Source of the DNA: Callaeas wilsoni
Lineage: Eukaryota; Chordata; Aves; Passeriformes; Callaeidae
Assembly: GCA_013398955.1 (NCBI GenBank)
Contig: VWPU01001221.1
Span: 183,400 to 247,399 of the forward strand
Reading direction: 5' to 3'
DNA: 64,000 nt
The notes beneath the pieces are model-generated. The model worked only from the letters and a program-made list of their open reading frames with translations, was not told where the DNA came from and searched no databases. Numbering within the stretch: position 1 is the stretch's first letter; every line of letters starts with the position of its first letter. A program made the translations under genes and the position numbers. Shown here piece by piece: positions 596-57,670 of this stretch.

Positions 596-661
596 TTATA
601 GTTCATTGTGTTGAAGACCTTGAGAGATTCTGCTGGATAAGTCTTGCAAGTGCTTCTTTAC
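596..661 (-). CDS. LRPAP1: LRPAP1 exon 8 (C-terminus, HNEL signal)
   Basis: This terminal coding exon has 66 nt after a CCTGATAG acceptor. It encodes VKKHLQDLSSRISQ through HNEL and a TAA stop. HNEL is a KDEL-like retrieval signal. The exon is too short to be found by ORF length alone and was located by homology and phase. Confidence 0.94.
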   Translation of the reverse strand, partial: VKKHLQDLSSRISQGLQHNEL

Positions 662-3600
662 CTATCAGGAAAACAAAACACACAAAAACAAATTTCAGGA
701 AAACAATAAATTATCAATATAGTAATATATTCAGATTTTGCTATGAGTATTTGTTACAACAGAAAGAGCAGAGAGCAGGAAGATTTCAGGCCTTTTAGAA
801 TTAGGCCTATAAAAAACAATTACGTGTATGCTGTACTAAACATGGAGAACAGATGTGCTTGAACTCCCCTTCTGGAAGTCATTCTGCTTGCATGAAAAAT
901 CAGCACTGGATAATCTACTTCCCTTCTGCTACTGAATTAAACTTTCGACGTGTATGTAACACTGGATTTATACAGACCTTATATCCTAGTTCTTTCGTCT
1001 TTTCTTGCAGCATGGCATATTTCTCTTTGTTTCTGTTCAGATGATCCTTGTCTCCAGTTCCCTCTACATGCTTCAGTTTCTGGTGTGAAATCTCTAATTG
1101 TTTCTGGTAATGATGGTGCTTTTCAATTTTTGCTTCAAAATGTTTCAGCTCCTCCTAAAATAACAAATACACACAGCTTCACAGGAGTTTCTTTCCAAGC
1201 CTTCCTTTTTCTTGCCAAGACACTCCTAGTCATACTTTACTAAGTCAGGCACAGAAGATTTTTCAGTTCCCTGCTTCTTAAGAATGTCTGGACAATTCAT
1301 TACCACCACCACCAAACTCCTGACTTTGAAAGCAAGTGCTGGAAACAACCCACTACAACAGATTTTTATCTTTTTAAAATCTGATAAACAGGCAGAGTCA
1401 GATAAATAAAAAAATCAAATGTTTTCTCTATACAAGTTGAATTGAATAAAAGTGGCATGAACTGCACAGGAATGAATTTCTATATTATTTTCTTGAAAAG
1501 CAGTCTTTCTCACTGTAGTTTTGTGTCAGCTCAACACAGCTCCACCATGGGAAGTTAACAGTACAAGAGATGGGCACGAGAGGGAAATTGCTGAGTATAC
1601 AGATTACACTGCTTCCCAAGGACATAATTAAGACATTGGGTAAGAGGGGTAGATCTGGTGCACTGGAAACAAAGAAGCAGGGCCTGATCTTTCAAAGGTT
1701 TAAAACATGCAACACTTGTTTTGAGAGGATTCAGAATTTTCATTCTGCAGGTTATAACAGAACCAGCATATGAGTAGTTACACACATGTTTTTATATTTG
1801 AAGTATTAAAAAGGCAGCATGACTTTTTTATGGTGTCTGGAGGGTAACACAGAAGTGGCTGCAATCAGAGTAACATCAAGTGTTTCTTTACGTGGCAAAA
1901 TATCTTTCTGCAAGAGAAGTCACTGGAATTCTACTTACCCGAAAAGATTCAAGTTCTTTCTCAGTGAAATTGGCTGATTTGGCCATGTCCCACAAATCAA
2001 TAACTCTTGGTTCTTCGAATTCTAAACAAATACATATAACATAATGAAAATCTGGACACAATGCTTTTAATGCCCAACTTCTATGCAAGATGAAGAGATG
2101 CTTTCTCACATACATATTGATATTAAGAACAGATATATTAAGCACTGCATTACTAATAGATTTATTTAGATGAAAAGGGAGAAGTATCCAAGTACTGGAT
2201 AAAACTAGATACTAGTACTAGATAGACAAAGTAGGTTTTTAAAAGCAAAACCCCCAAACTCGAGGAACTGGATAAAGGCATTGCTTGCTCTGCATGTTGC
2301 CTCACTTACTTGCCCTCCTGGGACTGACGGTGTAATATCCCTCCTCACGTGGGCATGGAAGACAGAACCACCCTCTTAACACACTGACTGTTCCCTTTCA
2401 GTAGGCTTCCAGTCCTAAATGGGACTGGCGGGCTGCATCTCTTCAGCCCACTGTGGTTCACTATGCACTGTGATACTGTGGCTACACCTTATTATTTGTC
2501 CACTGATTTTTTTTTTTTAAATGAAATTAATCCCAAATAAGCACAAACCCCACTGTATCATACCACTGGTTGTGTCATATCCCTGGTGACTGACTTTACG
2601 CAAACGCTCAAACCCCTGATTGATGCTTCTTAACTTCTCCTTGAGTTCTCTGTGTTTGTTGTGCAAGATTTCCTCTTTCACCAGGTTCTCCTCCGATGGA
2701 TTGATAACATTTTTGTGGATATCTGTTGAAGAACAATAAGTGTTATTGATTGTGGGCCAAATCTTGATGGGTCGAAAACTCCAGAAATCCCCCACATCTG
2801 AGGTGAATAAAAGATGCTAAGCTCTTAGGATTTAAGTTGCGTGCAAATAAAGCATCAAAACCAGACTTTAAGAAGTAATTCCTTTTGTACGTCAATATTC
2901 AGATCAATGCCCCTCAGTGCTCTGGAGGGTGATGGTACAGAAATGCCTTGTAAGTCCTACTGGCCCCCAGATTATAGTAAGGATTTTCCCAGGTTAGCAA
3001 TATCCCAAGAAAATGGGATAAGGATGCTCGATGAGTTCTTCCCTGGACATTTCATGAACCAAGACATCTGATGTTGAAGTGGTTTTCAGCAGCTTCAAGC
3101 TAGGACTATGTAATGCAAACATCAAACTGTCAGCTTTAGAATTCTTCAGCTCTAACAGTTTTAGCTCAGATTAGTACAGCAAGCTGGGTTCAGATCCTTG
3201 ATGCTCTAATAAACTTCAGGCTTGGTGCCTAAGATATTCAGGATATCCTCTTGGGCTCACAGCTGGTGAGATAAAACATGCATGTTCTGCAGACTTTAGA
3301 ACCACATTTTGCAGCAGTGGATTTAGTTTGTGCATAATTTCCTGTAAACTACAATGGCCATCATCATTAATCTGATGGCATCTTCCTGGCTTGAAATGAA
3401 GGCAGAATCAGAAAACTGAAATGGCAACATTTTCATTAGCTGGCAAGAATTTTGGCAGCTAATGCGGAACTAAACCCAGGAAGTATCTGAAAATGCCAGC
3501 ATCTGCAAGCAGTTCTGACAGAAATGTTGGGAATTTCAAGGGAATTTGGAAGCCATGGGCAGAGAAAAGACTTGTACTGCTCTTGAAACATCAGAGAAAT

Positions 3601-6600
3601 GCTCAGGCACCTTCTGTTCTGCTCACAGTCTCCAGCAGAATATTGTATTCATGAATCTTTTCTTTGTGATGCTTAAATTCTCGCCAAAGCTTATCCAACT
3701 CCTCATCAGAGAACTTCCCAGAAGTCTTGGCCTGAAAGAAACATGAGTTCATTATGCTTTCCAGGCCAAGTGCTTTCAAGTACCCCCAACTGCCAAAATG
3801 TCTTCCCACTTCTCACCACATTTAGAAAATTATTAAGTGCAGCTTTTCTTTAGATATTTTGTTTTAATTCTCTTAGTATTTGTATGTGGTCAAGATTTAG
3901 ATGTTGATAGATAAAGATGCCTTTAATCATGTCAAAAGGAAGTTTGCTTCAGACTTAGAAAGTTGGACTTGCTATGGACTACCCAGTGAAAAGTGTCTGG
4001 CATTTCTATTCCACAGGCAACAATTTAATACAGAAATAAGGGCCATGGAGCTCCATTGGCAACTGTAAGGGAACCATGTGTATGAGGGATGCAGCCTGAT
4101 ATTAAACACAGTCTTTACTTCATCTTACTTTACTGGCAGGTGAAGATTTTATCACTACTGTGCATTTGCTCTCTAACTATTAAGGAAGCATTGCTCACAC
4201 AGCTGGGGCACTACCCACAAATCTGGTGGCTTACTTGCTCCAATGCCTGATCAAAAGTGAATGTTTTTGATACCTATTCAGACCCAACCCTTTTTTTTTT
4301 TTGTTTAGGGAATATTCCTCCCATTGCACTTTACTGTTCCCCAAAGCACAGGACATCATGTTCCTTGCCAGAGCAGTATCTATTACAGTAACATTTTAAA
4401 ATCCAGCAACTCTTTTTTTCTGCTTTACTAACTCTGCACTAGACTTGCAGGAGAATTCTTCAGGTTTATCTGACTAGTTGCTTCTGAATACTTGAATTAT
4501 TTAATTTCTGAAGATTATGACTTTGCCAGTTTTATCTGCCCAAACTGACAGTACATCTTCCACTTTTTACGCATGAATGCAAATCCTGGAAATTTTCACT
4601 TGAATACTAGGTTGGGAAAGTCCTTATTTAAAACCCTTCCCCACAATACATTTCACTTTTAGAAAGTCTACAAAATGGTTCTATTTTAAATATATCTTTA
4701 AAAAAAAAATCCATAACAATAAGAAAACTAGGAAAAACACCATAGATAGACTACCACACAGTGAGAGTCACACTAAGGGAAGCATGAGTTCAGGGAAATG
4801 TGACAAACTACTCCATCTGACCTCAGAGGACCCAGGCTCCACCCTTCAGACTGATGTGGGTGTTTTATTTGCCAAAGACAACCTGCCACAGCTGGATGAT
4901 CTGGATGCAGGTGGGGTACCCTCAGGGCACAAAGATGTGAGCTACAGACCAATGCAGCTTGGTCAGTACTTAACAAAAGAGTAGTAAAGCTATTAATTTC
5001 CAAGTCTGAGTGCTCTCAGAAGACACAGCTAAGAGTTCAATGAAGATATACTGATTTCCTACACTCCAGTTCCTGGAAACCTTCCTCACCTTGCTCCATA
5101 GTTTTTCCAGTCTTGGATCATCTAGTGTGTCACTTTCTGTGCCATCTTTAATATAGTTGGTATCAACTAGTTGAGAGTCCTTCTTTCCATTCATTCCATA
5201 TTTAGTCATAATGACTGCAAGGGAACAGAAGATACAGAAACATGAGAACCAGTTATGGATGTATGGAAAGTGAGAGATGAGCTACATCTGTGACTCGCAG
5301 AGCTGGACTTTGCAGCTCACGGAGGAAAAGCTATTGGTTCAAGACACACAGGTCCAGGTTTAAAGACCTCTTCTGAAATTACTGGGAGCAAAGGAATCTG
5401 TTAGGCTCCTGCAGCTCCCTACTGATCTCCAAAGGACTTGTGTGTGCTCACTGTCCAGAAAGACAACCTGTTACTTAATGGTTCAAACACAAACACAGGT
5501 GTCTAACCACGCGTGTGTCTGACGCAAAGTTTAAGCCCCTTCTTTCCAAGACAGACCTTACCATTTAAGTTGCGTCTGAGCTTGGCCTCCTTCTCTCCAT
5601 CTTCATCCAGCCCTTCAGCCTTCAGTTTTTTCCAGCTTAGCTCATCCTTTTCTTGTATTTTTAGATCACTGTGCAACTCTGCCAGTTTCACAGCAGAGAG
5701 ATGGAGCTAACGAGAACAGAGAAAGGTTTGTATTTGGTTATGTGGAGTCCCCTCTGGCTTCAGAGCTACCTCAGAAACCAGTACAGATACATAAGAACCA
5801 GTATGGCACAGCAATTCTTCTCAAACAACATGCCATTGCCACCACATGTGCTTTCTTGAGGACCTCCTTCCAACCATGTAGTTATAGTGAGTTAAAAACT
5901 TTATTGGTTATTACAGTTTTTCAGACTACCAAGTCACTTAGGATGGCCTTGCAGGTCAAAGGACCATTTCATCAGCAATTTTTACCATGATCAAAATGAA
6001 AAAAATTCCCAGATAATTTCTTAACATGATTTATGTGCACTAAAACATACAAAACCTAGAGGTATTCCTGTCTGACATAACAGGACAAAAAAGGTATGAC
6101 ACTGAGGCTGAAGATAGGAAAATAAAAAAAAGTAGAATTTAGATAAAAGCTAGGTCAGCTTCAAATTTTGTGAACTACAGAGAAAACAGAAACAGAGACA
6201 ATGACTAATATGGAGTTGGCTAAGCAGCACTGCTGTGAGTTGATCCTGAACATCCAGATTTTAGACACCTTAGTTATTCAGTTTAAAACAAAGAAATTTA
6301 ACAAATCATCTTAATAGTTCAGAACTACTTTTGTCTGTGTCTACATGCCTGTCAACAAACAGAAGGCGAGGTGAGGACAAGCCCAGAGAGGAGAGGTGAG
6401 AAAACTCCTCCAACCACTGTGCAGCCAGCTCCTGGGAGCTGAGATCCAGCTCAAAACCCCTGGGCTTGTCAGTCCTAGGACAAGTTTATCTACTGGAGGT
6501 TTTTTTTATCATTAAAACCAGCTTACAGATTACAAAAATTCTCATTTTCAGTGAGGAAGCAGTATATTTATTAAACACAGACTCAGTACTGTTTTTAAAC

Positions 6601-9600
6601 ATCAGAATGATTCTGAAAAGATTCAGCCGTTCCTTTGTGTGTCAGTAGGTTATTTTAAAGTAACTAGGAAAAGTGTCATTGCTTTGAGCTAATGCACTTC
6701 CTATTGACAGGAATTCAGGAAGCTATCCACATTATTGTTTCTGCTTCCATCGTAGGCTGTCCTATTAATCAATCTTGTGCCACTGCATATAATTATTATG
6801 ATTTTTGAACTAGTTTTTTTCCTGCATTTTGCACTTGGCTTACTGAAATTACTAAAATCTAGAGTAGTTAGAATCACAGGTAAATATAATAATTATTATT
6901 ATATTAAAGTTCTGATCCCTCACATTAAAACTTCTTATCCTTCTAATACTAAAGCAAAGGAACATCCCTGTTGTCTTCTTTACCATCTACTTTTGAGGAC
7001 CTGCTTGATAGAAGCAAGGCTCTAAGAAGAAATCACTTTATTTATGGTTTTTAGTATGTGCTAAAAACCTTAATCATGTACTTATTTGCTTTTCTGGTGC
7101 AGGATGACCTGGACACCTCAAGTGTCACTGCTGCAGTGGCACCAAGTATCAGCATTTTCCTCAGCAAGAACTGTGCCCTGAAGCTCCAAGACTGAATGAA
7201 AGGTTTGCTACAAATTGTGAAGGGAATGGCCAAGCATCTCAGTAGTTCTGTACTCTAAGATTAGTCAGCATTCAAGTAGTGTGGATTTCATATGTAGCTG
7301 GGCTGAGGAAATACAGGAAAAAAATAGCCAGCAATAACTTACATAAGTAATTTACCTCCTAAGTACTGCAAATATAGGAAAATAAAATCTCTGATATGTG
7401 TGACCTTGTCATCAGAGACACATTACTGTATAAAAGATTACACAGTGCAATTTATGTTAGAGCCCCTCTGCAGTTAGTGCAATCTCAGAAACACGTACAG
7501 CTTTGTTTTCTAAGTTACAGAAAAGAATATCAGAACTTCTAAATATAACGTTTGGAGACATCTTCAATCAAACATGTTAAAGTCTTAAAAAAACTAAGGA
7601 ACTACATTAAGCCCACTGTTCCTGAAGAGAAAGCAAGATTCTATTCAAATTTCTCCCAATTAGAGCAATATTTTTCTGATTCTCACTATAATCTAGTATG
7701 AAACTGGACTAACTGTCCTTGTAAGCATTATAAATCCTTTGAAACCTTTTGGAAGCCCCTTGCTTGTCCCATTAATGTAACACAGAGTGAATACATAAGT
7801 TAATTTAAAGTATTCAGTTCAAGAACTGCTTCCTTTAAGGTCATCTCATGTAGGACCCTGAGTACACCAGGCAAAAAATATCAACGGATAGGACTCCTCA
7901 TCACTTTACTAACACTACTCACATGTTGGAACAACTAACTAGAAGCGGAGGTGAAAAGCTAAGTTTAATGACTAAATAACCAAGCAACAAGCTCCTTACA
8001 CTCATTCCTTCTTCCTCATGCTGCCTGGACATTAACATCCAAGATAGGTACCTGGCAATTCTGGGAATGAGTGCTGGAAATTTGTCAAACATTACAACAA
8101 TTAAGTCATTTGCAGGTGGGCTGGCTGCAATCATTACCTACACTCTTGCCTCCAAGAGGAAAGTGCTCTTCAGTACAAATTTACTATTTATGAAAAGAGG
8201 TTCTGGAGAAAGATCAAGCCTTCCCTCCCACCCTCAGGGAAACAAGAAGGAAGTCTGGCTTGCCAGCTCCTGGTCCCACTAAGTCACATTTTGGGGCTTT
8301 TTAAAGGACTGCTCATCCAGCTGTGTGCTGCAATGCTAAATTGCGGTATCTGTCAAAACAAAGAAGTTCCCTGTTTTCAGTACTTTCTCTACCATTACCA
8401 AAACAAAGGAATGAAGAGTTTTGCATTGACACATGGAAGTATTTCAAAGCAGATGTAACACATAGGCATAGTTTTCCTCTTATTTCATATACTGCCCAGA
8501 CATACTGAAAAATCACTTTATAAAACACATGCTGGGTGACAGTTGTTCTCAAAAGTGAAATTTAGATGGTGGCAAATTTAGTTCAAGTAGGTTTTGCATC
8601 TCAAAAATCTAGCTCACATATAGAGAATTTACTAAACCTTAGTTTTTTACTGACAGAGTTAATTCATTTTTTATTTTAGTATCTTAACATAGATGATGTA
8701 AAGCATCTCAAATTTTAATACCAGAAAAGCCAGGTATAAAAATGAGAGAAGACTGTAATTGGAAAGGTGAGAGGTAACTGACATTACCATCATTATATAT
8801 TATTTCTAGTCTCAGTGTTGTTTCTTTTTCAGCTCAGTTCACAGCTGGAGCTTCATAACACACACTGTCCTAGGCCCCATTTCATCCTTCTCCCATCGAG
8901 TAAAGGAGTATTTTTGATACCTTCCTTTAGCACACTGGGAAGCAGCACAACGGCAGAGTTCTAGTTTTTGGCTGAACCCAGGGATGCCCTATGTCCACTT
9001 CCATAGCTCAGGCTATTCAGAACACAGAAGATCCAAAATTAATATTAACTATATTTCTTTGCCTGAAAGAACTGAACCTTTGCCAGTCATGACCCTAATT
9101 CCCATGGTCCACAATATTCAGGGGATATGTGTAGTGCACTCTTCTCCTCCTGTTGAAGCTCTTCTGTTTAGTTCTAAGTAAATATTTCTGCTGTAATGAA
9201 ATACTTTGACTGTATTTTCACTTTAATTAAATACTTCTTCTAGTCCAGTGTGAGAGAAACTCAAGAATCACTGTCAAAATGAAGGCTCTCATCTGGGAAT
9301 GGTAATACCCATTTGCTGGTCCTCTTGCATTTGTCTGTATCACTTGATGTGAATGTGGGTGACACAACCACCACGGTGGAGGGTTTCCTCTTCTGTGCTG
9401 TGATCTCCTGCCCTGTGCAGAGCAGGGACCGAGGCCACCGGCTTCAGAGAGCATCACAGCCCGGAGCAACACGGCTAAAGCATTCAACCAGCGAGCGCTG
9501 GAGCCAGCCGCAGATCCTCCATGGCACCAGAGGGGTTCCCCTCTCTCTCCCACTTCCTGGGCATGTGGTTTAGCTGCTGTATTCAAACACGGGCAGGTCA

Positions 9601-10084
9601 ACACTTCCCAGGACTCAGATCCACATCCCGTCTCCCGGGAGAAGGCTGTTGCCCGCCGCCGGGACTGCCGCCCGGCGCGGGGCTCAGCGGAGCCCTCGCT
9701 GGCTGACGGTCGGGGACAGCCATGCCCGAGAAGCGAACAAAAGCCACCGCAGCCCCGAGCCGGGGCCGGACAGCCTCGGACACTCCCCACACACGGGACC
9801 CCGCTTCTCCCCATCTCCCTGAGGGGGAATGAGTGTCCGAAGCGGCCGGGCCCGACCCCGGGGCCCCCCCGAGCACCGCCATCGCCGCGCGCCCCCCCAC
9901 TCACCCGCTGCGCCTTCTCCCAGACCTGGTTCAGCCTCACCACTCGGAACTCCCCGGCCTCCCGCCGCTTGCCGCCGGCAGCCGCCAGCCCCTCATTGGC
10001 CTCCCGGGAGTACTTGCTGGCCTGGCCGGCGACAGCGAAGACCAGCGCGGCGGCGAGGGCCGGCAGCGCCCGCAGAGCCGCCAT
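596..10084 (-). CDS. LRPAP1: LRPAP1 (receptor-associated protein, RAP), complete 8-exon gene
   Basis: The product is an ER and early-secretory chaperone. It binds LDL-receptor family members (LRP1, LRP2, VLDLR and others), blocks premature ligand binding and escorts them to the Golgi. Eight coding exons on the minus strand join in frame into 351 residues, close to the 357 of human RAP as I remember it: 9905-10084, 5562-5706, 5090-5214, 3611-3731, 2564-2722, 1939-2021, 978-1154 and 596-661. All seven introns have GT-AG ends and matching phases. Residues 1-22 or so form a hydrophobic signal peptide. Three helical-bundle domains follow, with hallmarks such as LDEDGEKEA, LDDPRLEKLW, KLRSINQG and EEPRVIDLWD. 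The sequon NFT lies in domain 3. The C-terminus HNEL is the known RAP ER-retrieval signal. Identity was judged by recall of the family; no search was run. No lesion is visible. Confidence 0.97.
978..1154 (-). CDS. LRPAP1: LRPAP1 exon 7 (domain 3, receptor-binding helices)
   Basis: This exon has 177 nt (59 codons) after an ATTTTAG acceptor and before a GTCTGT donor. It begins EELKHFEAKIEKHHHYQKQL. In human RAP this helix carries the lysines that dock into LDL-receptor repeats and the histidines thought to sense Golgi pH. Both residue types are present; one human Asn position reads His here, giving three His in a row. It ends KTKELGYK in phase 0. Confidence 0.95.
1939..2021 (-). CDS. LRPAP1: LRPAP1 exon 6 (domain 3)
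   Basis: This exon has 83 nt between a TGTTTAG acceptor and a GTAAGT donor. It encodes (E)FEEPRVIDLWDMAKSANFT through ELESFR. It carries the NFT glycosylation sequon, at the same place as NLT in human RAP as I recall it. Confidence 0.95.
2564..2722 (-). CDS. LRPAP1: LRPAP1 exon 5 (domain 2 / domain 3 boundary)
   Basis: This exon has 159 nt between a TTCAACAG acceptor and a GTATGA donor. It encodes (D)IHKNVINPSEEN through KLRSINQGFERLRKVSHQG and ends YDTTS plus one base of a Glu codon. Confidence 0.95.
3611..3731 (-). CDS. LRPAP1: LRPAP1 exon 4 (domain 2)
   Basis: This exon has 121 nt between a CTTTCAG acceptor and a GTGCCT donor. It encodes AKTSGKFSDEELDKLWREF through ETVSRTE, nearly identical to human RAP as I recall it. 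It ends in phase 1. Confidence 0.95.
5090..5214 (-). CDS. LRPAP1: LRPAP1 exon 3 (end of domain 1, start of domain 2)
   Basis: This exon has 125 nt between a TTGCAG acceptor and a GTGAGG donor. It encodes (V)IMTKYGMNGKKD, a variable linker, and LDDPRLEKLWSK. Phase 0 at the donor. Confidence 0.95.
5562..5706 (-). CDS. LRPAP1: LRPAP1 exon 2 (domain 1)
   Basis: This exon has 145 nt between a TTAG acceptor and a GTAAGG donor. It begins LHLSAVKLAELHSDLK and holds the acidic stretch GLDEDGEKEAKLRRNLN. It ends in phase 1; the first base of a Val codon is completed in exon 3. Confidence 0.95.
5707..9904 (-). other. LRPAP1 intron 1 (4.2 kb)
   Basis: The largest intron, AT-rich except for the last several hundred bases next to exon 1, which belong to the CpG island. 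No recognisable repeat, exon or RNA gene was seen. Confidence 0.8.
9905..10084 (-). CDS. LRPAP1: LRPAP1 exon 1 (signal peptide, start of domain 1)
   Basis: These 60 codons start at the ATG at 10084-10082 and end CAGCGG before a GTGAGT donor. They encode an Ala/Leu-rich signal peptide, then KYSREAN and LNQVWEKAQR, which match the N-terminus of mature RAP. The reading frame stays open into intron 1, so a naive ORF call overextends here. Phase 0 at the donor. Confidence 0.95.
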
Positions 10085-10244: not shown

Positions 10245-12230
10245 GTTTGAGCTCTTTCTCTTCGTGCCATTCTCCTCAGTGCTTGCTTCTCAAAATACGC
10301 TGAACGTGGCACGTTTTTTGAGTAGTTTCCCCCCCCAGTCTGTAGTAACTGCAGCCAACACTCGGTGTTGATGTCAGCTGTGCGAGAACAAGGGGACACA
10401 GTGGGTTCGAGCACCACTACTTCCGTCAAACAAAGTTTTCAGATATTAACACAATGTCCAAGAGTATACAGAGAAAGAAGAGGCAGCTCGGGGAGGACGG
10501 AAGGCGAGAATGGGGACCGGTTCCCCCGTGCTGCCTTGGCAGTGGCAGAGAAGAACACCCGGGACAGCACAGAGGGATGGATGGTGGTGGGGAGAAGGAG
10601 GATTGTGAGAAAGGCAGGGACGCGTAGGTTGGGCTGCTCTCGTGGGGTGAAGTGTGGGAATGGCTCTGGTCTCGGTAGTGTGTGCTCAGAGTGCAGCTCC
10701 TGGGCAGGAGAGCCCGTCCTGATGTGCCAACCTCCCACGTCAGTGCGTCCTCCTCAGGGAGCCAGCCCAGAAGTGTAGTGGTAAACAGGCAATTTTGGGA
10801 GGGGATTAGGTCAAGCTGTATTAAGAAAAAAACTCCACGGTGCTGTGAAAATGCACAGTATTTCATCCAGAGTTGGTGTATATTTAAGAACAAACAGATT
10901 GCCTAAACTCTAATGAGATTTCTGAAAACAATGCCCCAGGGAGGGTTTTTAAAGGACTCTCATTTTTGCCTTATAAGCAATATAAAAGTCTTGTGTTTTC
11001 TCTTTCACATTTTCCTAAGTCAGAGATTTTCAGTGTTATTAACCTAGAAGCTGTTGCTTTAAGGCTAAATTGGAGAAGTGGCCGAAAGCACTGCAGTATA
11101 TGTTGCATTGAAGAGTAGTTGAAGCGAGCATTGAAGTACACATTGAGATACAGCAAACTGATGATGCAGAAAGAAGCTCATCAGCCTTGCCCAAATCTTG
11201 TGCAGCTCTACACATCACTTTTAGGATTTAGAGCTTCTTTTAGTCTCATTATTACAGTGTATATATGTATTCCTGAGTCAGTTTGGAGCAGGTAGTTTTA
11301 TCTTGTCTGTTATTTGAAGTACTGATTGAGTTTTCAGGCTCTCTGCAAATAAATTCAACTCCTATGCTCTATAAACTCTAACAGGTTCTCACTCTTGTTC
11401 TAGTATTGAGTGTACTTGTGCACAGTTTTATGCATTTGTTTGCCTGAGTTTCTGAGCTACACTGCAAATTTTGAGAAATAGAGAGGAGCTGCAGCATGAT
11501 TAGTTTGCTTATGCTGGCTTGTTGGATGTCATTCTCCAGTGCCCTTACCTCTGTGACCTCGAGTGACTAGTGCTGGTATTGTTCTGTGTGTCCTGGCCCA
11601 AGCAGAAGCAGTGCAGGGCAGAAGGTGGCCCTGGGGCCGAGCTGGTGTCAGCCGCAGAGATGTCCCGCTCGTGTCCCCAGCGCTGGGCAGCGGCGTGAGG
11701 ACAGAGGTGGTGTCAGTGGTGGGGACAACGCTGCCTGCTCCTCTGGCAGCACTGTGGCACAGTGTGTATGTGGGGACAGCAGCACTCAGGAGCACCGGGA
11801 CCTCAGCTCCAGCGCTGCAGGGAGCTGTAGTATAGGAGAGGGCTAGGAGTGGGGATGTCAGGTAGTCAAAAACTGTCCTGATCCTCAGTTCTTTGGGGAA
11901 AATATGTCAAAGAGCTGGTGGCAGATGCCCAGCAGGGCTGCCTAGCCCAGGGGGTTTGTTACTGAGCTCCACAGGTGCTGTGTGGGGAGGGCCCCAAGAA
12001 ATGAATGAGATGCCAGTGTCACCCCCCAGGTATGTCTGGGTCATGCTGGGAAGCAGGAGCAGAGTCCAGGCTGGAGAGGGGAAGTACTGTGGGAACTGTC
12101 ATGGGACTGCCCTGCACAATGGGTAGCAGTGAAACCAGGGAGTGGGGAGGGCAGGAGGCTCCCCATGGGTCCCATCTGTCATGTTGGGGCTCCAACAGGG
12201 ACTTCAGAGACACCCAAAGGGTTTGACAAG
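10245..12230. other. GC-rich intergenic DNA between LRPAP1 and the chemokine remnant
   Basis: No gene was recognised. The part from 11540 to 12230 is GC-rich and has overlapping open frames on both strands, typical of composition rather than coding. Some phrases (for example around 11640-11740) loosely resemble the repeated GC-rich blocks at 15.3 and 16.1 kb, but too weakly to call. Confidence 0.5.
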
Positions 12231-12238
12231 CCAAACAC

Positions 12239-12244
12239 TTTATT
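12239..12244 (-). terminator. Poly(A) signal of the chemokine remnant
   Basis: AATAAA on the minus strand 26 nt past the TAA of exon 3. Position and strand fit the 3' end of the chemokine gene. Confidence 0.5.
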
Positions 12245-12270
12245 CAACCATTTAAGCACACAAAATTTAG

Positions 12271-12487
12271 TTAAACAAGTGTATACCAATTGTAATAAGT
12301 TTTCCCATGAAGAAGGATGCAGCTCAAGCACTCCCATTGCATGTCTGGTGCTGGGGGCTGAGCCCATTTCCGTGGTGCAGCAGTAGGGAGGCGTGAGTAC
12401 TCTGGCAGCCTCATGTACTTCAGGTATTTCTGCACCCGGAGAGCCTTGGGGTCTGTGCACAGCTCCCTCTCCTTCCTGGTGACCAGG
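12271..12487 (-). pseudogene. Chemokine copy A, exon 3
   Basis: Follows a pyrimidine-rich TCTCCCAACAG acceptor. Encodes LVTRKERELCTDPKALRV, QKYLKYM and a long tail to TAA at 12273-12271. The LCTDP block holds the fourth chemokine Cys. The C-terminal tail is longer than in most CC chemokines and may be read-through after loss of the original stop. Confidence 0.8.
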
Positions 12488-12671
12488 CTGTTGGGAGAAA
12501 AAAGCAGTGTTGAGGCACTCAGCCAGGGCATCAGGGTGCCTGCACTAGGTCCTTCCGGCAGAGCCCTCGCTGTCCCTGCCTATGCCCTTCCCCATCCTTG
12601 ACAACCCTGGACACCCTTGGGGTGCTGCCCTGGCTGGTGCACCCTGGGCCCCGGCAGTGCTGGGTGCTTAC

Positions 12672-12779
12672 ACCACGGCTGCCTTTGGGCAGCTGTTGCT
12701 GGTGCTGTAGGCAGAGCGGGTCATTCTGAGTGGAATGCGGTGCGGGCTGGAGGTGGTGCAGAGCAGATGCGTTTGGGTC
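12672..12779 (-). pseudogene. Chemokine copy A, exon 2 with 2-bp insertion
   Basis: 108 nt between a CCTCACAG acceptor and a GTAAGC donor. An intact phase-1 to phase-2 chemokine exon here would be 106 nt; the extra two bases at 12761-12762 (TC, a CT repeat step) sit inside the adjacent Cys codons. The frame on either side is otherwise open. Confidence 0.8.
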
Positions 12780-13068
12780 CTGTGAGGGCAGAGACATGGG
12801 CCCAGTGAGACCCCACACTGCGGCAGAGGCTCTGCCTGGGGCTCCCAGGGGATTTGCCATCACCTGTGCTGTGTCCTCCAAGGACACCCCCTGAAAACCT
12901 CCATCTCTCAGGCTTAGTCCCTGCACTAGTGATGATCATCGGCTCTCAGCCTTCTCCAAGGACAGGAGGATCTAATCAATGGGGATGGGGCTCTCTGCTG
13001 GGGAAGGAGAGCCTACTGTGCTTCTGGGAAAATGCAGCACTCCTGGAGACTCTGAGATTGGCCTCAGC

Positions 13069-13126
13069 CAGGGAGCAGATGGGCCACAAGGAGCAGAACA
13101 GCCAAGGCAGCTGCAAGGACCCTCGT
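13069..13126 (-). pseudogene. Chemokine copy A, exon 1 (signal peptide) with ACG for ATG
   Basis: 58 nt encode a typical chemokine leader after the first codon and end CCTG before GCTGAG, a GC-type donor in phase 1. Copy B aligned over this site (14744-14746) has ATG, which supports ACG being a mutated start. No in-frame ATG lies close upstream, because the LTR begins about 45 bp away. Confidence 0.75.
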
Positions 13127-13170
13127 GATGCTGGGAGGGCTGAGGGAGCCACAAGTGAGGCTGGAGCTGG

Positions 13171-14145
13171 GATGTTGTATGGGTTTGAGGAGTTCTTTTG
13201 TTTTGTTGGTTTTTTTTTTTTTTTCTTTCTTAAGGAATTTTCCCCGTAGGCTGGCTAATGGGCCGTAACGACTGGACACGTCACAGACAAAAGAAGTTAT
13301 CAGGTCACGGGAGAAGGCCGGTGGCCCCTCTCTCGTCCTGGGAGTGCCCAAGTAGGGGGAAGATACCGCGAGACGGGAGACTGGACATGGCAGGGTGGCA
13401 CACAGCCCCTGTCTCTCGGGCTCTCTCGCTCTCGACTGGGGAAGAGGAAGGAGGCGGCCGAGGCTGTGTGGAGAGGAGTTTTTCGGCTGTCGTCGGGGAC
13501 CAGCCTGGTCCTGCTCCTTTTGCTGCGGGGTGAGCCCCTGCTCGTAAGAGCAGCCCCTCAAACTGAGACCTTATTAACACCCCCCTCACTAAGGGAAGGA
13601 CTTTCTTACCATCTGCCTGGGTGCCCGCTCCCTCCTCTCCCTGCCTTCCTTGCAGCCGGGCTGCTGCTGCCCTGCCCTGCCGCTTCTTCGGGGCTGCTCC
13701 CAGCCCTCGCTACTCTGTAGCCTCGCACCTCCTGCCTGCTGAGACCTCCCGGGGATTTCCCACTGCAGCTCCAGAGCGTGATACATCTCCTCCACCATCC
13801 CAGGACTTCTGCTTGTCTCTGCCGTCCCAGCTTGCCGCCGGAGCGCCCCTGCCAGCTATGACTGGCAGGGCACCAAAGGAGAAAGTGCCTGCACCCAAGA
13901 CGGCCGTCATTGGGTTCCTAGTTCTGTTTGTTGTTAATACCAAAGTTGTTGTTATTTTTGTCTTATTAGATATACTAGTAAAGAACTGTTATTCCTATTC
14001 TCATATCTTTGCCTGAGAGCCCCTTAATTTCAAAATTATAACAATTCGGAGGGAAAGGGGTCCCCATTTTTTTTTTAATTTCCCATTCCAAGGAAGGCGT
14101 CTGCCTCCTTTAGCAGACACCTGTCTCTCAAACCAGGACAGATGT
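13171..14145. mobile_element. Solo LTR of an ERVL-type endogenous retrovirus with 5-bp target duplication
   Basis: The LTR runs from 13176 (TGTATGGGTTTG) to 14140 (CAAACCAGGACA), with short inverted ends TGT..ACA. It is flanked by GATGT at 13171-13175 and 14141-14145; a 5-bp duplication is usual for ERVL. The part from 13930 to 14130 (AGTAAAGAACTGTTATTCC, CTGAGAGCCCC, TTCGGAGGGA) reads like ERVL LTRs of songbirds as I recall them. There is no internal retroviral sequence, so this is a recombined solo LTR of 965 bp. It splits the chemokine copy A promoter from its exon 1. Orientation is probably plus, judged from the TG start and the AT-rich 3' part. Confidence 0.88.
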
Positions 14146-14330
14146 CTGTAGGGCTCTCCTCTGCACGATAGCCCCTGCTCGTGCTGACCTCTTTTTATAC
14201 TCCTGCCACTGGGCGGGCACAGGGTTTCAAGAAAGAAAATGAGTGTATCATACCAGGAAAATTATGTAGGGCAAAGAAACTGCAGAAGAGGAAGTGCCAG
14301 CCACAGGGCTGCAATTTTCAGATTCAAGAG
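14141..14330 (-). promoter_or_regulatory. Displaced promoter of chemokine copy A
   Basis: Aligns with promoter copies B, C and D around the shared phrase GAAAATGAGTGTATCAT (14235-14251) and the block GAAGTGCCAGCCACAGGGCTGC (14291 on). Holds a TATA box on the minus strand. The kappaB-like site seen in B and C is not conserved here. Homology stops near 14325, where a CR1 begins. Confidence 0.65.
14192..14199 (-). promoter_or_regulatory. TATA box (TATAAAAA) of chemokine copy A
   Basis: Without the LTR and one target-site copy this box would lie about 100 bp upstream of the exon 1 start codon. That leaves room for a 5' UTR of about 70 nt, normal for CC chemokines. Function is inferred. Confidence 0.6.
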
Positions 14331-14334
14331 AGAA

Positions 14335-14738
14335 CAGATCTTATGAGGAGCAGCTGAGGGAGCTGGGTTTGTTTGACGGTAAAAGAGGAAGCTAAGGAGA
14401 GACCTTACTGCTCTCTGCAACTACTTGAAAGGAGTCTGTAGTGAGGCGGAGGTTTCTCTCTTCTCCCAGGTAACAAGTGACAGGATGAGATGAAATGGCT
14501 TCACGTTGAGCCAGGGCATATTATGAAAACATTCTTCTCTGAAAGGGTTGTCAAGCACTGGAACAGGCTGCCCAGGGAAGTGCTGGAATCGCCATTCCTA
14601 AAGACATTCAAAAGACATATAGATGTGGTGCTTAGGGACATAGTTTAGTGGTGGACTTTCTAATACTGGGTTAACGGTTCAACTGGATGATCTTAAAGGT
14701 CTTTTCCAACATAAATGATTCTACAATTTGATTCTATG
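14335..14738 (+). mobile_element. CR1 LINE 3' end, plus orientation
   Basis: Contains CR1 landmarks in order: AGCTGAGGGAGCTGGGTTTG, CACTGGAACAGGCTGCCCAG, GTTCAACTGGATGATCTTAA, GGTCTTTTCCAAC, and the tail ATGATTCTAC / GATTCTATGA. 5'-truncated. It sits exactly between promoter A and the start codon of copy B, replacing the B gene body. Confidence 0.9.
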
Positions 14739-14960
14739 AACTTCATGGTGTGGCAGGGGCTGAGAGAACACAAGCAGGGCTGCAGCTGGGGTGAGTGCAG
14801 GGTTTTCCTCTGCACAATGCTTGGTCCCTGCTGCTGCTTCCCTCCTATTCACCCAGAGCTTCAAGGAGAGGAAATGAGTACATCATACCAGGAAAATTAT
14901 GACAGGATTTCCCAGTTTTGCTGAGCTGGAGAAGTCAAGGAAACCACAGAAGAGTAAGCA
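14739..14960 (-). pseudogene. Chemokine copy B: promoter and first codons only
   Basis: Minus-strand remnant. Upstream part aligns with copies A and C (AGGAAATGAGTACATCATAC at 14868-14887; TTGCTGAGCTGGAGAAGTCA at 14918-14937). A kappaB-like site lies at 14904-14913. The leader region (CTCAGCCCCTGCCACACC) aligns with that of copy A and leads into ATG AAG TTC at 14746-14738, after which CR1 sequence begins. Exons 2 and 3 of this copy are absent. Confidence 0.6.
14904..14913 (-). promoter_or_regulatory. kappaB-like site, copy B
   Basis: GGGAAATCCT on the minus strand, one base from the NF-kappaB consensus GGGRNWYYCC, about 160 bp upstream of the copy B ATG. Same site in copy C. A motif match only. 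Confidence 0.45.
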
Positions 14961-15289
14961 CAGGCCTTGGTGGTGGAACCAATTGCTGGTGCAATTGGGA
15001 CAGACCAGGATGTTGTATCACAGCTGCCCCACCACTGCCACCTGGCAGGTGAGGTGGTGGGTCTGGTCCCGCTGCACTGCCCACACTGCTGCACTAGTTG
15101 GTGCTTCCAGCAGAAGGACCGGCAGAACAGAGGTGACAGCTCAGCCCCAGCCCCCCTCTGCCCTGGCCCTGTCTCGGGCTCTGTGGGGTGCCTGTACTCA
15201 CTTGAACGCCCAAAAACACCTGGGAGATGCAGCATTACTTGTGATCACAGGGAAAGCGAAAGTTTTGGGGCGTTGCTGGCCCTGGCAGG

Positions 15290-15590
15290 TGTCTGAGGTG
15301 CCCCCAGCTGGCAGATCCCGCCCGTGTGGGGATGGCACAGAGGCAGCTGGTGTCAGTGCCACACTCACCCGGTGAGCCCAGTTAGCCCTTGCCTGGGTGA
15401 GCTGCTTGGATGGTGAGACTGAAACACTGATACAGCCACATGCCCTCTCAAAATATCCCTAATTTTTGCATAAATGAAGATATGGTGGGTTACTTGCAGC
15501 TGGCTGACAGTACATCCTGGTGAGTTTACTGGCCTGTGCAGTGCCAGAGAAGGGGCAGGGGGCCATGGTGGAGACATGAGCAGGCCTGGA
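15290..15590. repeat. GC-rich duplicated block, first copy
   Basis: Matches 16062-16360 in the same orientation: GAGGTGCCCCCAGCTGG, CACAGAGGCAGC, GTGTCAGTGCCACACTC, CTGATACA, TTGCAGCTGGCTG and CTGGCCTGTGCA occur in the same order in both. Here it abuts promoter copy C directly, suggesting that the gene body of copy C was lost by recombination or deletion. Confidence 0.75.
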
Positions 15591-15985
15591 GCTGGGATGA
15601 CTGCAGGCATCTCCTTTGCTCAGTGCTCAGCCTCTGCTGATGCCGCCCTCCTTCTAGTCTGCCAGAGATTCAAGGAGAGAAAATGAGTGCATCATGACAG
15701 GGAAATTCTGCCAGGATTTCCCAGTTTTGCTGAGCTGGAGAAGTCAAGGAAACCACAGAAGGAAAAGCTCTGGCCACAGATCTGCAACTGTCAGATTCCA
15801 TTTGAGTGTCCGGTGGGAATGGCCGGAGCCCAAACCCCTGTGACGCGAGGCCTGCTGCTGCTGCAATGACCTGTTGGCTGAGAGCCAGGCTGGGGCATGA
15901 AGTTTGCTAACCAAAGTTCTGAGAAAAATCAGAACAAGGCCAGAAAAAGGAAAAAAATGAGGGAGTAGCAAGTTCTGTAGCTTGT
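15570..15985 (-). pseudogene. Chemokine copy C: promoter remnant
   Basis: Aligns with B over CAGGATTTCCCAGTTTTGCT (15712-15731) and onward through GAGAAGTCAAGGAAACCACA, and with D over the AAATCA-GAACAAGGC-GG-AAAAAGGA tract near 15930. Two kappaB-like sites. No chemokine exon is recognisable on its 3' side. The minus-strand ATG at 15584-15582 opens a frame without a convincing signal peptide. Confidence 0.5.
15700..15722. promoter_or_regulatory. Paired kappaB-like sites, copy C
   Basis: GGGAAATTCT on the plus strand (15700-15709) and GGGAAATCCT on the minus strand (15713-15722), three bases apart. The second is shared with copy B. Paired kappaB sites are common in inflammatory chemokine promoters; use here is inferred. 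Confidence 0.45.
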
Positions 15986-16011
15986 TTTCTGAATGGTGGG
16001 TGTCTTTGGGA

Positions 16012-16064
16012 CCTGATTATATCATACCTTTGTCAAGCAAGAATTTTGCTGTAGTGCTGTGTCC
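16012..16064 (+). repeat. Dispersed repeat copy shared with 42025-42077
   Basis: Partner of the copy 26 kb away. Lies at the junction of chemokine copy C upstream sequence and the duplicated block at 16062, so a repeat may have taken part in the rearrangement. Confidence 0.7.
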
Positions 16065-16360
16065 GAGGTGCCCCCAGCTGGAGGTGCAGCCCCTGAGGGA
16101 TGCCACAGAGGCAGCCCGTGTCAGTGCCACACTCCTCCACGGAGCCTGGTTACCCCTTGCCCAGCACTGCTAGTGGGCTGCCTGGCTAGTGACACCAGAC
16201 CACTGATACAATCATGTACCCTCTCAAAACACCTAATTTCTGCAGAAATGAACATTTTTGGGTAAACGAGGGTCTGGTGGGTGACTTGCAGCTGGCTGCC
16301 AGAGCATCCCTGGTGGGTTGCTGGCCTGTGCACTACCAGACACAGAGCATGGAGACCCCC
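16062..16360. repeat. GC-rich duplicated block, second copy
   Basis: Second copy of the block at 15290-15590, same orientation, about 770-790 bp apart. Here it lies 3' (minus strand) of the copy D gene body, its likely original place. Confidence 0.75.
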
Positions 16361-16385: not shown

Positions 16386-16990
16386 TCAGCTCTTGCTGGT
16401 TATCGGGGAGTAGTTGTAGAATCCCTGTTCATCAGTCCCAGTCTGGCTCAGCTCGCTGGCCTGGTACTGCGAGAGGGGAAAAGAGGGTACGTGCCAGGGG
16501 CTGTTGGCGGTGTGGGGCTGGGGGCTATGGAGTGTCAGCTCTGGGGACTCACCAATCCGTTCTTCTGGACACTGAGCCTGTCCTGCTGGCACAATGACCT
16601 TGCTGTCAGCTCACTGGCACAGCCTGGACAGTGCCAGGAGGTGGCAGGAGTGCTACCCCCAGAACTGTGCTGAGGTGCCAGTGGGGGTAATACCAGGAGC
16701 AGGATGAGGGAGAGGCCAGAGCACCTTCCACAGTTCAGGGCACCAGCTAAAATCTGCCCTGGCACCTGCTCAGGGGGATGTTCTGTGCTCACCTTCCTCC
16801 TTGGGGACCTGATACTTCATTTTGGTGGGGGAGAGGTACGCAGGAGCATCCCACCTGCTGCTCTGGCAGCACCCACTCCCAGCTCTCCACATGGTCTTGG
16901 GGGTCTCATCCGTGGGGATGGGGCTGTCTTCTGGGAAGGGAGAGCATCCCTGGCTTCTGGGAGGACTCAGCAATGCTAGGATCACATAGA
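16386..16990 (-). pseudogene. Chemokine copy D: decayed gene body
   Basis: The part 16890-16985 aligns with intron 1 of copy A (12950-13040): shared CCCAGAAGC, GCTCTCC, TTCCC and AGCCCCATCCCCA in order. A GTGAGT donor at 16547-16552 and a TCTCGCAG acceptor before 16466 sit where the exon 2 end and exon 3 start are expected. The exon 3-like piece begins ACCAGG and holds GAGCTGAGCCAGAC, resembling ACCAGG..GAGCTGTGCACAGAC of copy A, but reads to an early TGA (16388-16386) and lacks the chemokine Cys pattern. Exon 1 is not preserved. It could instead be an unrelated exon; the family link rests mainly on the intron 1 alignment. Confidence 0.4.
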
Positions 16991-16999
16991 TGGGCATCA

Positions 17000-17325
17000 G
17001 ATGGGGAAATTGGAAGAAAATAAAAGCCTCATAACGGGGAAATGGAAAGAAAACGAGTGCATCATAACAAGGACATTGTCAGGACCACCCAGATTTGCTG
17101 AGCTGGTGAAGGCAAGGAAACCACAGAAGGGGAAGCACCAACCACAGTGTTGTGACTTTCAAATTCTGTTTGGTTCCTGCCGTGGACTGGCCAGAACCTA
17201 AACCTGCCAAGATTCAGGCTGGTGCATGCAGCTCTATAACAAGAGCCCTGAGGAAAATCAAGGCAAGGCTGGCAAAATGGAAAAAAAGGAAGAAGTAGCA
17301 ATTTTATCCATCACTACACTCCCTG
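17000..17325 (-). pseudogene. Chemokine copy D: promoter remnant
   Basis: Carries the shared phrases GAAAACGAGTGCATCATAAC (17050-17069), TTTGCTGAGCTGGTGAAGGC (17093-17112) and the AAAATCAAGGCAAGGCTGGC tract, aligned with copy C. The kappaB-like position is degraded (AGGACCACCC). A partial internal duplication (GGGGAAATTGGAAGAAAAT / GGGGAAATGGAAAGAAAAC) lies at 17005-17055. Confidence 0.5.
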
Positions 17326-57564: not shown

Positions 57565-57620
57565 TTACAGGATACATTCTTTGGACTAGATGATCATTGT
57601 GGTCCCTTCCAACTGAAATC
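57565..57620 (+). mobile_element. CR1 LINE 3' terminus
   Basis: TTTGGACTAGATGATCATTG then GTGGTCCCTTCCAACTGAAA is the last part of a CR1 3' UTR. The usual ATTCTATG tail is replaced by a pentamer array. Confidence 0.8.
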
Positions 57621-57670
57621 ATTCCATTCCATTCCATTCCATTCCATTCCATTCCATTCCATTCCATTCC
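57621..57670 (+). repeat. (ATTCC)10 microsatellite on a CR1 tail
   Basis: Ten perfect copies of ATTCC directly after the CR1 3' terminus. It probably grew from the octamer tail by slippage. Perfect purity suggests recent expansion and length polymorphism. Confidence 0.97.

Follow-up and report, generated by a model that had tools for sequence, protein, structure and literature searches.

The window, by which we mean the whole 64,000-nucleotide stretch of Callaeas wilsoni DNA analysed here (contig VWPU01001221.1), ends where its contig ends and carries on its minus strand the gene LRPAP1 and, upstream of it on the same strand, a remnant of a three-exon CC-chemokine gene (12271-13126), with about 3 kb between its start site and the start codon of LRPAP1. 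An LTR-type element and an array of decayed sequence copies adjoin the remnant. The features, with the evidence for each in brackets, are as follows:

596-10084, minus strand: LRPAP1, eight exons with an open frame of 351 aa (Pfam matches, exon joining, protein matches)
12239-12244, minus strand: AATAAA poly(A)-type signal 3' of chemokine exon 3 (sequence)
12271-12487, minus strand: chemokine exon 3, its frame running past TCA (12396-12394) to TAA at 12273-12271 (Pfam IL8, E 4.3e-4)
12672-12779, minus strand: chemokine exon 2, with a two-base frameshift between the adjacent Cys codons (TGCTCTGC, 12765-12758) (Pfam IL8, E 5e-4)
13017-13126, minus strand: coding part of chemokine exon 1, leader and N-terminus, with ACG at 13126-13124 where relatives have ATG, a one-base frameshift in the C run at 13083-13081 and a GT donor at 13016-13015 (sequence, alignment with relatives)
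13127-13175, minus strand: remaining 5'UTR of the chemokine gene, resembling the N-terminal extensions of predicted canary and Zonotrichia proteins (tblastn on joined flanks)
13176-14140, plus strand: 965-bp LTR-type element, putatively solo, TGT...ACA (39 other places, ends, target duplications, unoccupied site in two relatives)
14146-14340, minus strand: 5' end and promoter region of the chemokine gene, with the TATA-box-like AGTATAAAAAG at 14201-14191 (sequence, shuffle tests, joined flanks)
14768-15573, minus strand: relic B, decayed tandem copy of the promoter region (self-comparison, shuffle tests)
15574-16352, minus strand: relic C, decayed tandem copy of the promoter region (self-comparison, shuffle tests)
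16858-17304, minus strand: relic D, decayed tandem copy of intron 1 and the end of exon 1 (16876-17007) and of the promoter region (17044-17304) (DNA search, self-comparison, shuffle tests)

The neighbouring LRPAP1 matches PF06401 in four places and PF06400 in two, one of these two under the cut-off, and its eight exons, separated by seven GT/AG introns, join into 351 open residues. Its product shows 96% identity with the tawny owl protein across 351 residues and 98% with a zebra finch protein across 330. A scan of the window for RNA families returned none at the gathering score, and the prokaryote library NCBIfam gave no match.

When the chemokine exons are taken singly, exon 2 (20.6 bits, profile positions 4-35) and exon 3 (20.8 bits, positions 37-60) each match the IL8 profile PF00048 just under its cut-off of 21.3 bits, and exon 2 gave no match in its other frame in this Pfam scan of single exons. 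Read through, with an X at each frameshift, the exons match PF00048 at E 3.4e-15 (56.4 bits), so that the joined product carries the domain of a CC chemokine. Such a read-through also matches 74 distinct PDB sequences, and among the best 60 of the 74 the top one is CCL18 (E 2.3e-8). Chance similarity is ruled out by two exons falling on successive parts of one Pfam profile and by four stretches that match the relatives in order. The original prediction, a CC-chemokine gene or pseudogene next to LRPAP1 that should be checked against PF00048, is thus borne out, on the one side by the IL8 matches and on the other by the Pfam matches and open frame of LRPAP1. A genome-wide six-frame search for Pfam IL8 yielded 10 matches at E <= 0.001, among which the chemokine locus was absent, as expected for single decayed exons.

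CC chemokines are three-exon genes, and the predicted arrangement of three exons with intron phases 1 and 2 is recovered at this locus once the extra bases are discounted, with GT at 13016 and 12671 and AG ending at 12780 and 12488. The donor of exon 1, GTAGGC, is unusual, and the exon model should be regarded as predicted. The second and third Cys are parted by 22 residues and the third and fourth by 15 (C-X22-C-X15-C), which agrees with the CCL5-type spacing claimed before; both of the first Cys codons are kept in exon 2, but two bases part them. The leader exon is present as previously proposed, although it had been drawn too short: exon 1 reads ITRVLAAALAVLLLVA and then, one base out of frame, ICSLAEANLRVSRSAAFSQKH, up to the GT at 13016, and the consensus of the relatives over this stretch, in the alignment with 31 of them, is MRVLAAALAVLLLVAICSLAEADLRVSRSAALS. 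An end of exon 1 at LLPG is therefore ruled out, since the leader of the relatives continues in the next frame. The read-through with this short exon 1 (to LLPG) is the one used for the protein search, the PDB search, the 31-relative alignment and the conserved-column count.

Searching 5.8 billion proteins with the read-through returned 31 relatives at E <= 0.001 out of 318 candidates, the best at E 1.2e-13. All 31 carry PF00048 and all 31 are birds by name, a few being called only uncharacterized or hypothetical, and unbroken relatives are annotated in dozens of birds as CCL3-, CCL4- or CCL5-like. A profile built from 29 of the 31, with P0013 and P0025 left out for their odd N-termini, found 420 proteins among 7,990 scored; by name, the best 120 of these 420 are from Neoaves, with no fowl or ratite, the assignment to bird orders being presumptive. 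In a tree of 71 rows (the window copy and 70 hand-picked relatives with presumptive group labels), separate branches set off the 24 non-passerines (100/95), the 5 suboscines (97/88) and the 41 oscines (98/83), and the window copy lies with all the oscines on their side of the last. Such a split into oscines, suboscines and non-passerines is expected of a single orthologous gene. Within the oscines, the window copy falls in a set of 23 rows, itself included, at 95/71, which is not firm, the bootstrap not having settled, and no starred set of half the tree rows or fewer holds it. Its end branch measures 0.77, against a median of 0.24.

Among passerines, the proteins named CCL3-like, CCL4 homolog or CCL5-like, such as P0002 of Hirundo rustica, P0013 of Serinus canaria, P0018 of Haemorhous mexicanus and P0161 of Taeniopygia guttata, resemble the window copy in the leader, the N-terminal stretch, the IL8 domain and the C-terminal end of the alignment. 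They have an open frame, an ATG, adjacent CC, the Trp and the usual stop, whereas the window copy lacks all of these and bears the LTR-type element in addition. In the house finch, the only bird with such synteny evidence, P0018 (the relative) and P0047 (LRPAP1) sit on contigs of identical length, 78,191,299 bases, which places them on one chromosome without showing that they adjoin. On the basis of sequence, the tree and this house finch contig of identical size, the window copy is likely the orthologue of the avian relatives. Two further observations concern the relatives themselves. The proteins of Passer domesticus (P0192) and P. montanus (P0193) are only 79% identical, which could reflect tandem paralogues or very fast evolution. 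Within each of the same-species pairs P0208/P0237, P0210/P0234 and P0216/P0239, the main difference is that a stretch behind the leader is missing, which suggests that exon 1 has alternative donor sites.

The window copy differs from these relatives by more than the single 2-bp insertion first noticed, which is present, but as one of at least four disabling changes of different kinds, in addition to the LTR-type insertion in the 5'UTR. The place of the start codon is ACG (a blue tit protein has PSIMRV where the window has PSITRV), and the original frame of exon 1 reaches a TGA 20 codons after the ACG. The exon 3 frame runs 41 codons beyond the place of the relatives' stop, to TAA; at the point where the window copy has LPEY in exon 3, many relatives finish with LEY, QEY or a similar ending. 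An Arg codon (CGG) replaces the Trp of WVQKYL, a residue that 29 relatives share without exception. The window copy departs from the relatives in 15 of 47 conserved columns, 10 of these being gaps or X in a row that lacks part of exon 1; counting letters only, it departs in 5 of 37, compared with 0-5 of 43-48 for the relatives (the worst being 5/43 and 5/47), a difference that is weak by itself. The combination of start codon, signal peptide and continuous frame that a working gene would have is missing, and an intact chemokine cannot be read from this copy. Given the ACG at the start place, the frameshifts, the lost stop and the TGA after 20 codons, the gene is therefore a pseudogene.

It is very improbable that the gene still works by way of an alternative first exon, a start codon other than ATG or atypical splicing, yielding a divergent chemokine whose C-terminal tail is long. 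Such a reading would fit the 41 open codons past the normal end of exon 3, the preserved GT/AG borders of both introns, the AATAAA and the resemblance of the three same-species pairs to exon-1 splice variants; yet inspection of the sequence found no ATG between 13170 and 13017, the original exon 1 frame closes at the TGA, and the second frameshift, the lost stop and the Trp to Arg change at an invariant site all speak for a pseudogene.

The 965-bp element stands between the promoter and the coding exons, with some 50 bases separating it from the lost start codon on one side and from the TATA-like box on the other, and is flanked by the 5-bp target duplication GATGT (13171-13175 and 14141-14145). 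When 13180-14160 was compared with the assembly at the DNA level, 41 rows came back, corresponding to the window itself and no fewer than 39 further places, one of them split in two, at 83-90% identity; further copies are likely, because there were 945 candidates at first look and 40 were scored. Five of the 39 copies were examined: all five start with TGT and end with ACA, they are 92-93% identical to the window copy in ungapped columns, and the 5-bp target duplication is exact in four, the fifth having 4 of 5 bases alike. The element thus has TG...CA ends, a target duplication and dispersed copies, and is read as a solo LTR, putative as to family. Like the solo LTRs of avian endogenous retroviruses, it combines TGT...ACA ends with a 5-bp duplication and dispersal, and it differs from a complete avian endogenous retrovirus in having no internal region at 13176-14140. 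The size of its duplication would make it ERVL-like. Next to the chemokine promoter, 14341-14760 resembles the 3' end of a CR1 retroelement, its TTCTATGA-type end being presumably CR1-like.

The relatives also bear on the state of the insertion site. The N-terminal extensions of P0013 (canary) and P0182 (Zonotrichia) match the 5'UTR of the window copy, and in a tblastn against a 431-base subject of joined flanks, with the element left out, both proteins align from one side of the insertion site to the other (E 5.5e-20 and 1.1e-17, respectively). As they read straight through, the site is unoccupied in the canary and Zonotrichia relatives. A third protein tried on the joined flanks, P0177, has no such N-terminal extension. 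Likewise, the alignment of the decayed paralogous stretch at 15555-15798 runs through the insertion site with no element in between, its 5'UTR side alone being weak (E 0.56). The insertion may conceivably have been the first and decisive blow to the gene, although this is only a possibility.

The idea that the gene is healthy and its lesions stem from faulty sequencing or assembly deserves next to no credence. It could appeal to the extra base of exon 1, which sits in a short C run, but it would have to explain at least four lesions of different kinds, the long branch in the tree and a full LTR-type insertion with its target duplication, all in a window with no N. We hold it very probable that the window copy is a broken CC-chemokine gene directly upstream of LRPAP1, likely the orthologue of a CCL3-/CCL4-/CCL5-like gene that is unbroken in other birds. 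The likeliest account is that an avian chemokine already annotated, though little studied, has its dead orthologue here, and that no novel type of gene is involved; as a gene death it is clear, instructive and fairly ordinary.

Upstream of the promoter, the DNA repeats itself. The stretches 14768-15560 and 15574-16352 are 64% identical over 830 columns, and parts of relics B and C recur at 17044-17304 (66%). Moreover, 12943-13074 recurs at 16876-17007 with 69% identity, the end of exon 1 and intron 1 lying on the same diagonal. We assessed these likenesses with 21 shuffle tests of 200 shuffles of two-base blocks each, and the counts that follow are shuffles of 200, given for relics B, C and D in that order. 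The promoter stretch 14141-14400 matches all relics (0, 0 and 0). The first half of intron 1 matches relic D (0) and finds no support in relics B and C (36 and 77). For exon 3 with its 3' flank, the counts were 1, 30 and 2, borderline for B and D. The tests failed for the 5'UTR with exon 1 (66, 25 and 24) and for exon 2 (44, 19 and 75), and gave no support for intron 2 (36, 9 and 12) or the second half of intron 1 (23, 53 and 40). A chemokine exon 2 in relic D near 16390-16470, picked out by eye, was dropped, the shuffle tests lending it no support. It is the promoter region and intron 1 that carry the reading of the relics as former chemokine genes; judging from these alignments, a small tandem cluster probably occupied the locus in the past. 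When the assembly was searched at the DNA level with 14768-15560, every match lay within the chemokine locus.

The relics raise the question of whether a tandem or dispersed duplicate has died here while a working sister copy persists elsewhere in the genome. The promoter relics that adjoin the window gene would agree with this, as would the two sparrow relatives, which at 79% identity are as far apart as tandem paralogues might be, and a working copy may have gone unassembled, because the assembly is fragmented into 12,470 contigs. However, a DNA search of the assembly with 12200-13200 yielded only the window itself and relic D. With the swallow relative P0002 as protein query, 10 matches came back, of which two lie in the window gene and eight elsewhere (contigs C5891, C4903 and C4718) at 34-58% identity, none of the eight covering the leader; this counts only weakly against a sister gene, because the frameshifted leader of the window gene was missed as well. 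We therefore regard a surviving sister copy as improbable, and the death of the orthologue itself remains our preferred reading.

The position of the locus can be compared with what is known in chicken. In the table passage of a 2005 list, 13 chicken CC chemokines are assigned to chromosomes 9, 11, 19 and Z (PMC1082905), against which a place beside LRPAP1 is unusual. Chicken CCL3L1/4L1/5 are listed there with the pattern CCX22CX15C (PMC1082905). The CCL5/CCL3/CCL4 cluster on chromosome 19 shares with the window copy this spacing from the second Cys on and, as is general in the family, three exons; it differs in place, the window copy being upstream of LRPAP1. The locus surprises less than it did at the outset, as the gene is annotated unbroken in many birds. 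A literature search found no work on a chemokine beside LRPAP1 in birds. A 2012 survey mentions novel bird chemokines in the groups CCL30, 31 and 41 (PMC3568907), and a further paper reports that LPS is followed by a rise in the zebra finch genes named CCL5 and CCL4 (PMC6693190).

The unbroken gene would have been TATA-driven, with three exons encoding a secreted attractant of about 100 residues, whose predicted role, by analogy with its family, is leukocyte recruitment via a CCR5-type receptor. In the window copy, the start place is ACG with no ATG up to the inserted element, and the two frameshifts break the leader and part the adjacent cysteines, the stop being gone as well. The putative solo LTR in the 5'UTR separates the promoter from the coding exons, and the decayed promoter copies upstream may be the remains of a former small tandem cluster. 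It is likely that the lineage has lost one of its inflammatory attractants. A broader proposal, which we put forward tentatively and consider somewhat less probable than its negation, is that a separate bird-specific CC-chemokine cluster lies upstream of LRPAP1, outside the known chromosome-19 clusters, and that the whole cluster (up to four genes) is dead in this songbird lineage, the last gene having died once a solo LTR had come between its promoter and its coding exons, so that these birds lack an inflammatory attractant kept by most Neoaves.

Databases scatter the LRPAP1-side chemokine locus under at least three names (CCL3-, CCL4- and CCL5-like). A lineage with a likely loss offers a natural knock-out for asking about the role of the ligand in birds, and the LTR-type insertion, with its unoccupied site in relatives, provides a marker that can be tested by PCR for dating the possible onset of the loss. 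Far from the chemokine locus, the window also holds a perfect 5-bp microsatellite of about 10 copies of CATTC at 57620-57670.
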